Assembly: GCF_001567565.1 (NCBI RefSeq)
Contig: NZ_LSSW01000022.1
Coordinates: 124,001-188,000 of the forward strand
DNA: 64,000 bases
Source: Ectopseudomonas composti
GTDB lineage: Bacteria; Pseudomonadota; Gammaproteobacteria; Pseudomonadales; Pseudomonadaceae
Reading direction: 5' to 3'
Of the stretch, positions 15,045 to 43,380 are shown in pieces (within the stretch, counting starts at the first letter, position 1; each line of letters opens with the position of its first letter). Under the pieces are notes generated by a model, which was not told the DNA's origin, did not search any database, and worked only from the letters and a program-made list of their open reading frames with translations. A program made the translations under genes and the position numbers.

Positions 15045-16394
15045 TCAGCTCAGCTCGTTTTTCAAGCGCAGCAGCAAGGCGCCGAGTGCTTTCACAGCGG
15101 CATCTTCGGTGCGCCAGGAGCAGAGACTCAGGCGAAAGGCGGGGCGCCCCTGCCAGACGGTCGGTCCGAACCAGACTTCGCCGGAGGCCTGGGCTGCCTG
15201 GCGAATGGCGATGGTCTGTTCGTCTGAATCGCCACGCACCAAGACCTGGTTCAGCACAACCCGATTGAGTACTTGATAGCCGGCGTTGCGCAGTGTGCCG
15301 GCCAGTTCTTCAGCCTGGCGGATATGGCGGTCGATCATCGCTTGCAGACCTGTGCGGCCCAGATAGGCCAGGGCCGCCCAGATGGCGATGCCCCGGGCGC
15401 GGCGAGAGAACTCCAGCGTCAGGTTTTTCTGTGCATCCTTGCTCGCCGAGGCGTAGGCGGCATCGCTGTTCATCGCGACGGCCAGTGCATCGGCGTCACG
15501 GCAGATCGCCATGGCGCAGTCGTAGGGGGTGTTCAGCCATTTGTGTCCATCGGTCGTCCAGCTATCCGCCAGCTCGACGCCCTCGAGCAAGTGCGCCGAG
15601 GATGATGCGCGCGCCCAGAGGCCGAACGCGCCATCGACATGCACCCAGGCGTTAGCCTTGCGGGCGACGGCAATCAGCTCGGCAAAAGGGTCGAACTCGC
15701 CGGTATTGACCTCGCCGGCCTGCAAGATCAGCAGCGTGCGCTCATCCAGTTCAGGGAGGCGGGCCGGGTCGATACGCCCGTACTCGTCCACGGGGGCGTA
15801 GTGCAGGTGGTTCATGCCGAAGCCGAGCACGCGCAGCGCTTTCTTCACCGTGATGTGCGCCGTTTCCGCAAGTACGACGCGGATCTGCGGTGCGCCGAGC
15901 AATCCGTCACCATCGAAATCCCAGCCCTGGCGGGCCAGTAGCGTGCGCCGTGCAGCGCAAATACAGGCCAGGGTGCAGGCGGTTGCACTGGTGCCAAAGC
16001 CCACCGCGCTCTGATCCGGTAGCCCCAGCGCTTGGCAGACCCAGCGTCCGGCAATCTTTTCCAGCCGATCAGCGACTGGAGAATTGTCGAAGGACGAGGC
16101 GCATTGATCCCAGGCCAGTACCAGGCGTTCGGCAGCGGCTGCCACTGGCAGCGTCGCGCCGATGACGAAGCCGAAGTAGCGCGCAGCATTGCTCGCCACG
16201 GTGGCCGGTGAGCCAATCTCGTCGAGTTGGCGCAGCACCTGCTCGGCATCGCCGCCATCCTCCGGCAGGCTCTGGTCGAAAGTGGCCAGGGCCGCGAGGG
16301 CCTGGGCGTCGGGGAAGACCCGCCGTCCGTCAAGGCTGTCCAGGTAGGCGAGAGCTCGTCGATCGGCTTCTGCCAGCAGATTGCGTTCGTTCAT
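15045..16394 (-). CDS. PLP-dependent group II decarboxylase-like protein
   Basis: A 449-residue fold-type I PLP enzyme of the glutamate/aromatic amino-acid decarboxylase group. Features are [34 protein letters not shown] (His180, stacks on PLP), [12 protein letters not shown] (Asp254) and the Schiff-base motif [13 protein letters not shown] (Lys285). It could decarboxylate an aromatic or acidic amino acid, but the substrate cannot be assigned. It is monocistronic; its upstream gap holds four TACAGT repeats (16483-16543), which suggests a dedicated regulator encoded elsewhere. Confidence 0.88.
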
Positions 16395-16482
16395 GGGCTG
16401 TACTCGGTATAGGGCTGAGACCGCTTACCCTAGCCGAGGCGCGCCGGGCGGGGCATACACAGGCGCCAGCGAAGGCGACTGC

Positions 16483-16543
16483 TACAGTTGCCCGAGTGAT
16501 ACAGTCTGAACCGATACAGTGCACTGTTTCAGCGGTACAGTTG
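16483..16543 (-). promoter_or_regulatory. TACAGT repeat array upstream of the PLP decarboxylase
   Basis: Four direct TACAGT copies start at 16483, 16500, 16515 and 16536. The third is part of the perfect palindrome ACAGTGCACTGT (16516-16527). The array occupies the 150-bp gap between nasT and the decarboxylase start. Repeated short direct sites are typical of MocR/GntR regulators, which often control PLP-enzyme genes; that link is inference. Confidence 0.55.
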
Positions 16544-16544
16544 C

Positions 16545-17123
16545 TCAGCCGCCGAGCATGTCGTGCATGGCGATGATCTGTTCGGCCACCTGGATCAGCT
16601 TCTGCTGGCGGCTCATGGCCTGGCGCCGCATCAGGGTATAGGCCTCCTCTTCGTCGCAGCTCTTCATCTTCATCAGCAGGCCCTTGGCCAGTTCCACGCG
16701 CTTGCGTTCGGCCAGCTGCGCATCACGTGCCTGCAACTGCGCACGCAGCGCCTGGTCGCTTTCGAAGCGGGCCATGGCCACGTCGAGAATCGGCTGCAGG
16801 CGCTGGGCATGGATGCCTTCGACGATGTAGGCGCTGACGCCGCTCTGGATCGCCTGACGCATCACGCCGGGGTCATGCTCGTCGGTGAACATGACGATCG
16901 GACGCGGCTGGTCGCGGCTGACCAGCACCACCTGTTCCATCACATCGCGTCCGGGGGATTCGGTATCGATCAGAATCACGTCCGGACGCACCGCCTCGAC
17001 GCGCTCGGGCAGGTCGATGGTCAGGCCGGATTCGTCGATGACCTCGAAACCCGCCTCGATCAGCGCGCATTTCAGGCGGCCGACTTTCTTGGGGGTATCG
17101 TTGATCAGCAGGATACGCAGCAT
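16545..17123 (-). CDS. nasT: ANTAR-domain nitrate response regulator NasT
   Basis: A 192-residue regulator with an N-terminal receiver-like domain (LLINDTPKKVGRL, VILIDTESPGRD, SGVSAYIVEGI) and a C-terminal ANTAR RNA-binding domain (about 130-190) with ELAKGLLMKMKSCDEEEAYTLMRRQAMSRQQKLIQ as its core. In known systems NasT binds two-hexaloop leader RNAs and prevents transcription termination; NasS holds it inactive until nitrate or nitrite binds NasS. The gene follows nasS by 18 bp. A matching RNA target is visible in the leader of nasS itself (18448-18493). The nas structural genes are not next to it in this window. Confidence 0.92.
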   Translation of the reverse strand: MLRILLINDTPKKVGRLKCALIEAGFEVIDESGLTIDLPERVEAVRPDVILIDTESPGRDVMEQVVLVSRDQPRPIVMFTDEHDPGVMRQAIQSGVSAYIVEGIHAQRLQPILDVAMARFESDQALRAQLQARDAQLAERKRVELAKGLLMKMKSCDEEEAYTLMRRQAMSRQQKLIQVAEQIIAMHDMLGG

Positions 17124-17141
17124 CGATGGCTCTCCGGGCAG

Positions 17142-18353
17142 TTACAGGGCGACAGCCGGGCCGTCGGCCAGGGCGTGGAGGCGAAAGCTGCGGGCGTAGG
17201 CGGCTGGATCGCTGCCGTCCCAGCAGGTGCCGTCCTGCAGGATCGAGCGGCGCATCTCGCTCGGCACTGCAATGCCCAGTGCCGTGGCGGCCTCGCGGTA
17301 CAGGGCCAGTTGCTGCACCTGACGGGCTACGCCCAGGTAGTCGGGGTCGCTGCGTAGCAGGCCCCAGCGGCGGAACTGGGTCATGAACCACATGGCGTCG
17401 GACAGGTACGGCTGATTGACCAGGCCGCCGGCGTGGAAGCGCAGTGGGTGCTCGTCCTGCCAGGCGTGGCCGAGGCCGTTCTGATACTGGCCGAGGAAGC
17501 GTGGTGTGATCGCTGAAACCGGGGCGTTGACGTATTCGCTGCCGCTCAGCAGCAGGGCGGTGCTGCGTTTGTTCTCTTCGCTTTCGTCGATAAAGCGCGC
17601 GGCCTCGAGCACGGCCATGATCAGGGCGCGGGCGGTGTTGGGGTTCTGCTGGGCGAAGGCGCGGGTGCAGCCCAGCACCTTCTCCGGGTGATCCGGCCAG
17701 ATCGCCTGGATGGTGGTGACGGTGCAGCCGAGCTGCTCATCGACGGCCTTGGCGGTCCAGGGTTCGCCGACGCAGAAACCGTCGATGCGCTCGGCCTGCA
17801 GGTGCTCGATCATCTGCGGTGGAGGCACCACCACGCTGTCGACGTCGCGCAGGGGGTGAATGCCCTGGCTGGCCAGCCAGTAGTAGAGCCACATGGCGTG
17901 GGTGCCGGTGGGAAAGGTCTGGGCGAAGGTCAGGTGTGCTTCATGCTGGTGCACGTATTGGTGCAGTGCCTCGCCATTGGTCACGCCGGCCGCTTGCAGG
18001 GTGTGCGACAGGTTGATGCTCTGGCCGTTCTGGTTCAGCCCCATGAGTACGGCCATATCGGTTGCCGGAGCGCCGCCAAGGCCAAGCTGCACGCCGTAGA
18101 TCAGGCCGTACAGGCTATGGGCGGCGTCCAGCTCACCGCTGAGCAGGCGGTCGCGCAGGCCGGCCCAGGACGTCTGGCGTTTCAGCCTGATGCTCAGTCC
18201 GTATTTCTCGGCGAAGCCCTGAGTGGCGGCCACCACCACCGAGGCCGAATCGCTCAGCGCCATGAAGCCGATGTCCAGCACGCTCTTTTCCGGAGCGTCG
18301 CTGCCCCAGGACCAGGTCAGGGCGTCGCTGCGAGGGGTTTCGTGTTCGCTCAT
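17142..18353 (-). CDS. nasS: Nitrate sensor NasS (NrtA/CmpA-like binding protein)
   Basis: A 403-residue protein homologous to the NrtA/CmpA substrate-binding components but without a signal peptide (MSEHETPRSDALTWSWGSD), so it is cytoplasmic as expected for NasS. Conserved parts are IGFMALSDSASVVVAATQGFAEKYGL, QTSWAGLRDRLLSGELDAAHSLYG and DGFCVGEPWTAKAV (about 195-208). It senses nitrate/nitrite and sequesters NasT in their absence. It heads the nasS-nasT operon. The leader contains a sigma-54 promoter, two ANTAR-type hairpins and a terminator, pointing to autoregulation. Confidence 0.92.
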   Translation of the reverse strand: MSEHETPRSDALTWSWGSDAPEKSVLDIGFMALSDSASVVVAATQGFAEKYGLSIRLKRQTSWAGLRDRLLSGELDAAHSLYGLIYGVQLGLGGAPATDMAVLMGLNQNGQSINLSHTLQAAGVTNGEALHQYVHQHEAHLTFAQTFPTGTHAMWLYYWLASQGIHPLRDVDSVVVPPPQMIEHLQAERIDGFCVGEPWTAKAVDEQLGCTVTTIQAIWPDHPEKVLGCTRAFAQQNPNTARALIMAVLEAARFIDESEENKRSTALLLSGSEYVNAPVSAITPRFLGQYQNGLGHAWQDEHPLRFHAGGLVNQPYLSDAMWFMTQFRRWGLLRSDPDYLGVARQVQQLALYREAATALGIAVPSEMRRSILQDGTCWDGSDPAAYARSFRLHALADGPAVAL

Positions 18354-18405
18354 GCTGCTTCCTTAGGCTCACCAGAGGGGGCTTGGCTCGCCGATGGCTG
18401 GCCAC

Positions 18406-18457
18406 AAAAAAGCGTCGTACCGAACCCTGGCGCGAAAGGCCGGGATCGATACGACGC
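18406..18457 (-). terminator. Intrinsic terminator in the nasS leader
   Basis: On the minus strand GCGTCGTA...TACGACGC (18457-18450 with 18419-18412) extends inward through TCGA/TCGG and CCCGGC/GCC-A-GGG to a long stem with one T-T mismatch and one bulged A, followed by TTTTTT (18411-18406). It ends 52 bp before the nasS start codon, so it must be overcome for nasS to be expressed from an upstream promoter. Confidence 0.85.
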
Positions 18458-18493
18458 CGTTGTCGATCAAGCCATTCCGTCGTTGGAAAGGCT
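18448..18493 (-). promoter_or_regulatory. ANTAR-type two-hexaloop antiterminator RNA
   Basis: Hairpin P1 (18493-18470): AGCC/GGCT and TTCC/GGAA stems around a U-U mismatch, loop AACGAC. Hairpin P2 (18468-18448): GAT/ATC and CGAC/GTCG stems with one bulged U, loop AACGGC. Both six-base loops have A1 and G4, the conserved recognition bases for ANTAR proteins, and a single base separates the hairpins. The 3' side of P2 is the 5' arm of the terminator at 18406-18457, so P2 and the terminator exclude each other. Confidence 0.8.
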
Positions 18494-18509
18494 GTTTGTA
18501 TCCTGATGA

Positions 18510-18525
18510 AGCAAGGCATATGCCA
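18510..18525 (-). promoter_or_regulatory. Sigma-54 promoter for nasST
   Basis: TGGCATATGCCTTGCT matches TGGCAC-N5-TTGCW with one mismatch and has exact GG-N10-GC spacing. The predicted start is about 18499, just upstream of hairpin P1, which gives a leader of about 146 nt. NtrC is the likely activator; no NtrC site was identified. Confidence 0.65.
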
Positions 18526-18565
18526 GTCTGCCAGGTGGCTGGCTGTCAGGAGCGATTGGCCATAA

Positions 18566-18592
18566 AAAAGCCCCGCACGAGGCGGGGCTTTT
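18566..18592 (-). terminator. Terminator of acnB
   Basis: AAAAGCCCCGC-ACGAG-GCGGGGCTTTT is an 11-bp stem with a T run on both strands, 14 bp after the acnB stop. Confidence 0.9.
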
Positions 18593-18606
18593 CTGTAACG
18601 CGTGGA

Positions 18607-21216
18607 TCAGGCCTGAACGACCGGGATCTTGGCGTTTTCCGCAGCTTCACGGAAGTCGGCGATCTGGTCGAAGCTCAGGTAGCGGTAGATGTCGCCAGCC
18701 ATGCTGTCGATATCCTTGGCGTAGACCATGTACTCCTCGACGGTCGGCAGCTTGCCGAGAATCGAAGCGACCGCAGCCAGTTCGGCAGAGGCCAGGTACA
18801 CGTTGGCGCCATCGCCCAGACGGTTCGGGAAGTTACGGGTGGAGGTCGACACCACGGTGGAGTTGGCAGCGACGCGAGCCTGGTTACCCATGCACAGCGA
18901 GCAGCCCGGCATCTCCATACGTGCACCGGCCTTGCCGTAGATGCCGTAGTAGCCTTCCTCGGTCAGCTGGTGAGCATCCATCTTGGTCGGCGGCGACAGC
19001 CACAGACGGGTCGGGATACCGCCCTTGACCTTGTCCAGCAGCTTGCCGGCAGCGCGGAAGTGACCGATGTTGGTCATGCACGAACCGATGAACACTTCGT
19101 CGATCTTGTCGCCAGCCACGGTGGACAGCAGACGGGCGTCGTCCGGGTCGTTCGGGGCGCACAGTACCGGCTCGTTGAGCTCGGCCAGGTCGATTTCGAT
19201 GACTTCGGCGTACTCGGCATCGGCGTCGGCGGACAGCAGTTGCGGGTTGGCCAGCCAGGCTTCCATGGCTTGAGCACGACGCTCCATGGTGCGGGCATCA
19301 CCGTAGCCTTCGCTGATCATCCAGCGCAGCAGGGTGATGTTGGACTGCAGGTACTCGGCGATGGCCGCTTCCGGCAGTTTGATGGTGCAGCCGGCAGCCG
19401 AACGCTCGGCAGAGGCGTCGGACAGCTCGAACGCCTGCTCGACGGTCAGGTTTTCCAGGCCTTCGATCTCGAGGATGCGGCCGGAGAAGATGTTCTTCTT
19501 GCCTTTCTTCTCGACGGTCAGCAGGCCTTTCTGGATGGCGTAGTAAGGGATGGCATGTACCAGGTCACGCAGGGTGATACCCGGTTGCATCTTGCCCTTG
19601 AAACGCACCAGAACGGATTCCGGCATGTCCAGCGGCATGACGCCGGTGGCAGCGGCGAAGGCCACCAGGCCGGAGCCGGCCGGGAAGCTGATGCCGATCG
19701 GGAAGCGGGTGTGCGAGTCGCCACCGGTGCCAACGGTGTCAGGCAGCAGCATGCGGTTCAGCCAGCTGTGGATGATGCCGTCGCCCGGACGCAGAGACAC
19801 GCCGCCACGGGTGCGGATGAAATCCGGCAGGGTGTGGTGGGTGGTGACGTCGATCGGCTTCGGATAGGCCGCAGTGTGGCAGAACGACTGCATGACCAGG
19901 TCAGCGGAGAAGCCCAGGCACGCCAGGTCTTTCAGCTCGTCGCGGGTCATCGGGCCAGTGGTGTCCTGGGAGCCGACGGTGGTCATCTTCGGTTCGCAGT
20001 AGGTGCCCGGGCGAACGCCTTTGCCTTCCGGCAGGCCGCAGGCCTTGCCGACCATCTTCTGCGCCAGGGTGTAGCCCTTGCCAGTGTCGACCGGTGCTTC
20101 CGGCAGTGCGAACAGGTCGGTCGGGCCCAGGCCCAACTCGGCACGCGCCTTCTCGGTCAGGCCACGGCCCACGATCAGCGGGATACGGCCGCCAGCGCGG
20201 ACTTCGTCGAGCAGCACCGGGGTCTTCAGTTCGAAGGTGGTGATGACTTCGTCGGTGCCGTGCTTGCAGACTTTGCCAGCGTGCGGGTAGACGTCGATCA
20301 CGTCGCCCATGTTGATGTTCGAGACGTCGAACTCGATCGGCAGAGCGCCGGCATCTTCCATGGTGTTGTAGAAGATCGGGGCGATCTTGCTGCCGAAGCA
20401 GAAACCGCCAGCGCGCTTGTTCGGCACGTAGGGGATGTCGTCGCCGAAGAACCACAGCACCGAGTTGGTGGCGGATTTACGCGAGGAACCGGTACCGACC
20501 ACGTCACCGACGTAGGCAACCGGGAAGCCCTTGGCCTTGATCTCTTCGATCTGCTTCAGCGGGCCGACAGCGCCTTGCTGCTCCGGCACGATACCGTCGC
20601 GAGCCATTTTCAGCATGGCCAGGGCGTGCAGCGGGATGTCAGGGCGCGACCAGGCGTCCGGGGCAGGGGACAGGTCATCGGTGTTGGTTTCGCCAGGCAC
20701 CTTGAACACGGCCAGGCTGTATTTCTCGGCGATGACCGGTTTGTTGGTGAACCATTCGCCATCGGCCCAGGATTGCAGTACGGCCTTGGCGTTGGCATTG
20801 CCAGCCTTGGCTTTCTCGGCGACGTCGTGGAAGGCGTCGAACATCAGCAGGGTGTGCTTGAGTTGTTCGGCAGCGACAGTGCCCAGGGTGGCATCGCCCA
20901 GCAGCTCGACCATGGTGGCGATGTTGTAGCCGCCCTGCATGGTACCCAGCAGCTCGACAGCGCGTTGCTTGTTGATCAGCGGGGAAGTGGCTTCGCCCTT
21001 GGCAACGGCAGAGAGGAAACCGGCCTTGACGTAGGCGGCTTCGTCGACGCCCGGCGGTACGCGGTTGGTGATCAGATCCAGGAGGAATTCTTCTTCACCG
21101 GCCGGTGGGTTTTTCAGCAATTCGACCAGGCCAGCGGTCTGCTCGGCGTTCAGCGGCTGGGGAACGATTCCCAGGGCGGCACGCTCTTCTACGTGTTTGC
21201 GATAGGCTTCAAGCAC
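18607..21216 (-). CDS. acnB: Aconitate hydratase B (bifunctional, 2-methylisocitrate dehydratase)
   Basis: An 869-residue iron-sulfur enzyme of the TCA cycle (citrate to isocitrate). It has the AcnB-specific N-terminal HEAT-like region starting [17 protein letters not shown], the swivel region with [17 protein letters not shown], and the core with [21 protein letters not shown], the cluster ligand segments [19 protein letters not shown] (Cys) and [12 protein letters not shown] (two Cys). The length is normal. The start is a GTG at 21216, with GAGGG eight bases upstream, giving the family N-terminus; the upstream in-frame ATG at 21243 would add nine unusual residues. It is monocistronic with its own terminator and a leader holding a long inverted repeat. 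Confidence 0.96.
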
Positions 21217-43049: not shown

Positions 43050-43126
43050 GCGCCCGTAGCTCAGCTGGATAGAGCATCCGCCTTCTAAGCGGATGGTCGC
43101 AGGTTCGAGTCCTGCCGGGTGCGCCA
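43050..43126 (+). tRNA. tRNA-Arg (TCT)
   Basis: A 77-base cloverleaf: acceptor GCGCCCG pairs with CGGGTGC, the anticodon stem-loop is CCGCCTTCTAAGCGG with TCT, the T loop is GGTTCGAGTCC, and the 3' end is an encoded CCA. Confidence 0.96.
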
Positions 43127-43164
43127 TTTGGCGGTCAGGCAATTTGAGTAAGCAAAGCAATATG

Positions 43165-43240
43165 GTGGGCGTAGCTCAGTTGGTAGAGCACAGGATTGTG
43201 GCTCCTGGTGTCGTGGGTTCGATTCCCATCGTCCACCCCA
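43165..43240 (+). tRNA. tRNA-His (GTG)
   Basis: A 76-base cloverleaf: acceptor GTGGGCG with CGTCCAC, anticodon loop TTGTGGC with GTG, T loop GGTTCGATTCC, and encoded CCA. A G at 43164 can serve as the extra G-1 facing the C before CCA. Confidence 0.96.
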
Positions 43241-43250
43241 TATTCCAAAG

Positions 43251-43280
43251 CGCCAGGCCCAAAGCCTGGCGTTTTTGTTT
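43251..43280 (+). terminator. Terminator-like hairpin between tRNA-His and tRNA-Leu
   Basis: CGCCAGGC-CCAAA-GCCTGGCG is followed by TTTTTGTTTT. It ends only 15 bp before tRNA-Leu. Confidence 0.75.
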
Positions 43281-43295
43281 TAGGCTGCAAACCAC

Positions 43296-43380
43296 GCGGA
43301 CGTGGTGAAATTGGTAGACACACCAGATTTAGGTTCTGGCGCCGCAAGGTGTGAGAGTTCGAGTCTCTCCGTCCGCACCA
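43296..43380 (+). tRNA. tRNA-Leu (TAG)
   Basis: An 85-base class II tRNA with a long variable arm: acceptor GCGGACG with CGTCCGC, anticodon loop TTTAGGT with TAG, variable arm CGCCGCAAGGTG, and encoded CCA. Confidence 0.96.

Follow-up and report, generated by a model that had tools for sequence, protein, structure and literature searches.

Does an ANTAR protein control the very operon from which it is made? The question is raised by the 253-base gap that separates nasS from its upstream neighbour acnB (TIGR00117) in the 64-kb stretch of DNA analysed here (hereafter the window), a gap which contains a promoter and a leader. NasS (17142-18353, minus strand, 403 aa) is an NMT1-like nitrate-binding sensor (Pfam PF13379, 294.8 bits) in which a signal peptide is not evident according to our own reading of the sequence. 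NasT (16545-17123, minus strand, 192 aa) is made up of a receiver-like domain (PF00072, 31.0 bits) and an ANTAR domain (PF03861, 60.8 bits), both above the cut-off. It provides the genome with an ANTAR protein and is 99% identical to the NasT found in records of P. mendocina, P. sediminis, P. composti and P. alcaliphila, the species near which this Pseudomonas stands. The two genes are followed in the window by a PLP decarboxylase gene and then by alaC; further away, three consecutive tRNA genes lie at 43050-43377 on the plus strand. A terminator-like site (18570-18583, minus strand) lies between acnB and the promoter of nasS and probably insulates nasST from acnB; the scan found 2 such sites in 2.4 kb against 1.3 expected, which is weak alone. 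The first-pass annotation had remarked that the nitrate assimilation genes are not adjacent, and the narK/nasA-like, nrtA-like and nirB genes do sit on another contig. Since the leaders of these nitrate genes are found there and not in the window, the leader in front of nasS serves the sensor operon itself. We consider it very probable that this leader is an ANTAR-type transcription attenuator placed on NasT's own operon, most likely bound by NasT.

Anatomy and folding of the leader

The leader at nasS-nasT carries two hexaloop hairpins, as first described. P1 (18470-18493, minus strand) is made up of the 5' strand AGCCUUUCC, the loop AACGAC and the 3' strand GGAAUGGCU, read from 18493 to 18470 with one U.U mismatch; it is supported by the predicted folds and by covariation in relatives, and it begins six bases past the predicted +1 (~18499), where it had been placed. 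P2 (18452-18465, minus strand; CGAC[AACGGC]GUCG) is predicted when the first 50 nt are folded; GAU/AUC and a one-base bulge allow its extension to 18468-18448. The earlier statement that P2 starts one base after P1 holds with this extension; the distance is four bases without it. Both hexaloops have A1 and G4, again as claimed, and both are closed by a C-G pair. The intrinsic terminator (18406-18458, minus strand), also supported by folds and covariation, pairs 18458-18446 with 18423-18411 in a 13-bp stem and ends in T6 (18411-18406). Its 5' arm consists of the 3' strand of P2 plus loop bases 4-6, so that P2 and the terminator are mutually exclusive, in agreement with the overlap originally proposed.

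RNAfold predictions follow the growth of the transcript. The first 50 nt of the leader fold into P1 and P2, at 60 nt the P2 region prefers a different and longer pairing next to P1, and P1 and the terminator are predicted at 96 nt (-44.7 kcal/mol, z = -5.2 relative to shuffles; z = -5.8 in a second run). The passage from P1 and P2 at 50 nt to P1 and the terminator at 96 nt would be the order expected of an attenuator in these models. The uniqueness of this arrangement was evaluated with a strict detector that requires P1, P2, A1/G4 and C-G closing pairs in both loops, a terminator overlapping P2 and a T-run. The nasS leader is its only match on both strands of the window, and 30 first-order Markov windows contained 0 matches. 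The same detector recovers 53/81 known leaders (about two thirds), or 55/81 with a laxer P1.

The sigma-54-type promoter and nitrogen control

The -24/-12 element with GG and GC at the correct spacing that had been reported is present at 18525-18511 (minus strand; TGGCATATGCCTTGC) and predicts the +1 given above. TGGCAYRNNNNTTGCW is matched exactly nowhere else in the window (1 found, 0.13 expected), and 4 matches are found with one mismatch where 3.1 are expected; since the latter number is close to chance, the promoter alone is weak evidence. Its conservation is wider: a TGGYR-N5/6-YTGC element occurs upstream of nasS in 80/80 named loci, Azotobacter vinelandii among them, these loci being the 80 that rank highest in NasT similarity among 540 relatives. 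In 71/77 distinct leaders, 27-28 nt separate the -12 element from the loop of P1, and this constancy links the leader RNA to this promoter and its start site. No sigma-70 promoter was found in a scan of 16300-18700. In a crude scan for NtrC palindromes, 10/81 upstream regions came within 3 mismatches against 13.4% in shuffles, which is not above chance. Two other candidates were discarded: TGGCGCGGGTTTTGC, found in 8 loci of genus g6 between -204 and -217, which as a promoter would be far from nasS and inside an apparent upstream terminator, and a 3-pair stem that RNAalifold placed among the promoter bases.

The first-pass annotation considered an autoregulated nasST operon with a sigma-54 promoter as not commonly described. 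This does not hold for the promoter, present in all the named loci and whose sigma-54/NtrC control is published in the portions consulted of several papers (PMC8657755, PMC7214821, PMC8443478, PMC12316311); for the leader itself, no description was found. According to these portions, nasS decreases 121- and 91-fold and nasT 93- and 83-fold in ntrB and ntrC mutants of P. aeruginosa PA14 (PMC7214821), both genes are down in a P. stutzeri ntrC mutant (PMC8443478), sigma-54 affects nasST (PMC8657755) and the COG that includes NasT has 66 predicted sigma-54 promoters (PMC12316311). In an excerpt on nitrogen-limited P. putida, nasT increases 7.25-fold in the wild type, and an rpoN mutant still shows a 4.00-fold rise that is not significant (PMC7801951), a result that counts against a strict sigma-54 dependence of nasST. 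The search that returned no description of the nasST leader covered an open-access full-text library. A work by Gutierrez from 1995 on Azotobacter is said to discuss nasST autoregulation.

Rfam relatives and sister leaders

The leader matches the Rfam narK RNA (RF03032) at 18451-18524 on the minus strand with 42.8 bits (E = 5.1e-7; 2.0e-6 for the whole genome), 0.4 bits below the gathering score of 43.2. Judged by this score, it is a near-threshold relative of the narK RNA and not a curated member. It matches P11/nalA (RF00625) with 24.2 bits, below the threshold of 70. Weak Rfam matches on the plus strand and to RsmX/RsmY correspond to the acnB terminator region and were rejected. When the whole genome was searched with RF03032, three places rose above noise (the next match has 19.6 bits). 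In addition to the nasS leader, these are a 68.2-bit match upstream of a NarK-family transporter gene (TIGR00886, narK/nasA-like) and a 35.0-bit match upstream of an NMT1-like (nrtA-like) gene that shares its operon with a nitrate ABC ATPase gene (TIGR01184). The nirB gene (TIGR02374) is preceded by a P11/nalA element (123.6 bits, L021:2814-2952, minus strand), which the narK model misses (15.3 bits). By eye, a -24/-12-like element can be recognized in all four leaders of the genome, as can a terminator and the two hexaloop hairpins. Positions 1-15 of the RF03032 model (GGCaCAgcucUUGCU) are unpaired and can be read as the sigma-54 -24/-12 element, the model hairpin corresponds to P1 with CCAACGGCGG, and P2 and the terminator are absent from its structure line. 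The narK RNA of Rfam thus seems, from this comparison of sequences, to join a stretch of promoter DNA to an ANTAR hairpin, and not to be RNA over all of its 72 bases.

These likenesses place the leader among known systems. It matches the narK RNA end to end but sits on a regulator operon instead of a transporter gene. The nalA/P11 leader of nirBD has the same sigma-54 promoter, P1/P2 hexaloops and terminator, and in Pseudomonas NasT acts with it by antitermination, as summarized in the portion consulted of a review (PMC12830290); it differs in its target, which is the sensor pair in the case of the nasS leader. The available portions of two papers describe the same two short hairpins with A1/G4 hexaloops, P2 overlapping the terminator, as targets of EutV, NasR, AmiR and NasT-like proteins (PMC3369931, PMC7496416). 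The hairpin spacer is 5-12 nt in the E. faecalis eut leaders described there (PMC3369931) and 1-4 nt in the nasS leader. Nevertheless, the eut range is no rule for NasT targets, since the nasA leader of the same genome has a loop-to-loop distance of 24 nt. Self-control by an ANTAR protein has a precedent in amiECBRS of P. aeruginosa (an operon named in the excerpt of PMC3369936), because amiR belongs to the operon that its own leader controls; there, the regulator genes come after the target enzyme genes, whereas sensor and regulator come first in nasST. In Paracoccus denitrificans, excerpts report the same sensing of nitrate by NasS and NasT, with release of NasT from NasS and NasT binding to the leader (PMC3795266), and an NtrC site within the leader region of nasT that is important for expression (PMC5424462). 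Yet, according to the latter, the NasT-responsive hairpins of that species precede nasA and not nasTS, whereas here they precede nasS-nasT. An excerpt on Bradyrhizobium also tells of several NasT-regulated genes without a recognisable hairpin and of narK-bjgb, which has the hairpin and is not activated by NasT (PMC6759348); these data count against the generality of the rule that links NasT to such hairpins.

Conservation and covariation

In all 80 named loci, nasS lies directly upstream of nasT; these loci were chosen by NasT similarity and under-sample the leaderless lineages. Their leaders were aligned with the window (alignment A1: 77/80 loci plus the window, 78 rows, 77 of them distinct). 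L062 and L074, whose leaders are shortened by the assigned nasS start, and L095, which has a long insertion, were left out. In the latter locus (P. caricapapayae, 3471 onward), additional sequence separates P2 from the terminator's 3' arm, and the nasS leader is longer by ~170 bases. The alignment is anchored on a promoter regex and the conservation of its promoter columns is partly by construction.

The initial description had been staked on covariation across relatives. This was found in P1 and in the terminator and not in P2, which is nearly invariant and uninformative in this respect, since its three inner pairs hardly vary. Over P1 and the terminator in the 77 distinct rows, 91.4% of the cells are paired, compared to 35-51% when the partners are slid by 1-3 columns, and double changes occur in 12/18 pairs. 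The covariation score is 0.409, against 0.255 in shuffled and 0.064-0.130 in slid alignments, and 0/500 shuffles reach the observed value on any of five measures. The terminator stem alone has 94.4% of its cells paired and double changes in 6/11 pairs. Covariation was counted twice, by our own count with one P1 gap shifted and by a tool with the unshifted alignment and a smaller P1, and the results agree.

The recognition features are not equally preserved. Among the 77 distinct relatives, A1/G4 is present in loop 2 of 76 and in loop 1 of 63, and the loop starts are separated by 22-25 nt in 74. In 14 relatives the P1 loop is devoid of A1/G4, among them a clade closely related to the window in which it reads GGCGAC or GACGAC; the P1 stem is kept and the first loop position is G in L022, L024, L028, L030, L031, L033, L038 and L044, all near the window. 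Recognition of P1 may be decaying in that sister clade.

Distribution, gain and loss

The narK motif (E <= 0.01, 111 genomes) and nasT (1e-60, 106 genomes) were compared in 148 genomes of Pseudomonadaceae. Both are present in 104 of them, 7 have only the motif, 2 only nasT and 35 neither, a co-occurrence with a Fisher p of 1.4e-24 that is uncorrected for relatedness. The 106 genomes contain 115 NasT matches. Two nasT genes occur in nine of the family genomes (G011, G070, G078, G086, G094, G101, G136, G141 and G146), and the second nasT copies sampled in them also have a promoter and an attenuator in front of their nasS.

Upstream regions were taken for 80 of the 115 matches and, after removal of three without a NasS match, 77 nasS loci remained. 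An attenuator is found at 47 of these. This number includes L266, scored as present by hand, as its nasS start is misplaced and it resembles the genome of L074. The other 30 lack it, and 18 of them keep a canonical promoter within 200 nt; the attenuator is thus dispensable. The loci with a promoter and no attenuator belong to genus g15 (14/14), g10 (2) and g9 (2), that is, L242-L256 except L248, L226, L227, L215 and L217. In genus g6, neither promoter nor attenuator is found within 200 nt in 10/13 loci. When mapped on the NasS tree, a quick LG+G4 reconstruction on which gain is not separable from loss, attenuator presence requires 7 state changes, 6 of them forced by starred branches, compared to 24 for shuffled labels. 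On this reconstruction, the nasST attenuator has changed state at least six times among the relatives.

Outside the family, 50 loci were drawn from the 47 + 54 listed NasT matches. In the ~1.5 kb upstream of nasT, the strict detector found a leader in 0/50 loci, a lower bound since it misses about a third of the known leaders, and it found one downstream of nasT in 21. The downstream position is the classical layout, in which the leader acts on the genes that follow. In L162 and L164, from another lineage, a leader between nasT and nasS was considered, the downstream gene having a product 54% identical to NasS. This reading was rejected: in L162, this protein starts with an apparent Tat-type signal, indicative of a periplasmic nitrate-binding protein, and so the layout is classical.

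A further hairpin (GTTC-N6-G..AC) covers the ribosome-binding site of nasS, just past the terminator, in 31/158 upstream regions of relatives drawn from two sets that overlap in species (for example L051:3743-3757, L064 and L081); there is none in the window. Its loops have A1/G4 in 31/31 cases (11 distinct), though the search pattern did not require it. RNAfold gives it a 7-base loop, and its fold is no better than that of shuffles. This third hairpin is possibly a NasT site that would act on translation.

Proposed mechanism and alternatives

Several scenarios may explain these observations. In the one that we favor, NtrC would presumably activate the sigma-54 promoter when nitrogen is scarce and transcription would start at ~18499. 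Within ~95 bases, the leader RNA would either fold into the terminator or have P1 and P2 held by an active ANTAR protein, most likely NasT, which nitrate or nitrite would release from NasS. In the latter case, the 5' arm of the terminator would be occupied and the polymerase would continue into nasS and nasT. By this route NasT would boost expression of the operon that encodes it, and NasS, translated from that message too, would limit this effect.

ANTAR sponge RNAs exist in Listeria and Enterococcus (Rli55/EutX), and one possibility is that the main product here is the terminated leader RNA of ~95 nt, whose P1 and P2 would titrate NasT from other leaders. An RNA with P1 and P2, driven by sigma-54 and provided with a strong terminator, is present, and the sister leader of nirB is the Rfam sRNA P11. 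Nevertheless, the terminated fold sequesters P2 within the terminator, and all examined loci with an attenuator have the leader immediately before nasS, a placement that sponging would not need; we thus deem this scenario improbable. It seems about as improbable that the element is a partial terminator that merely lowers nasST expression without any input from NasT. The persistence of two A1/G4 hexaloops, a fixed spacing and a covarying P1 would not be expected in that case, even though relatives without the leader cope and some relatives have decayed P1 loops. Alternatively, the leader could belong to an operon that extends further and has as its true target the decarboxylase gene (15045-16394), which is on the same strand ~150 bases past nasT, with no same-strand terminator-like site between them in our scan. 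This enzyme has no evident role related to nitrogen oxyanions, the neighbours of nasS-nasT with this leader differ in other sampled species, and the next narK-type leader comes 7 bases after nasT in two family genomes (G079 and G071), all of which make this target very unlikely.

The preferred reading, an attenuator through which NasT opens its own operon, can be extended to the family as a whole. The nasST attenuator would then be a plug-in feedback module of Pseudomonadaceae by which NasT gates its own synthesis as well as that of its inhibitor NasS. At least six gains or losses of this module would have occurred, often with retention of the sigma-54 promoter, and the third A1/G4 hairpin would add translational control by NasT in Azotobacter and P. 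alcaligenes-like relatives. In this complete form, the proposal is speculative and rather doubtful.

Implications

The ANTAR attenuator is of a kind already known; here it is placed on the nasST regulator operon, and its evolutionary pattern is unexpected. The nasS leader also suggests the nature of the narK RNA of Rfam, a sigma-54 promoter fused to an ANTAR target. The relatives that keep only the promoter are natural leaderless controls, which allow a comparison of the same sensor in the presence and in the absence of the loop. Should NasT indeed open its own operon, a double feedback loop would be part of nitrate assimilation in Pseudomonas and Azotobacter, with activator and inhibitor encoded on one gated message, and such a loop can set sensitivity, a threshold or bistability.
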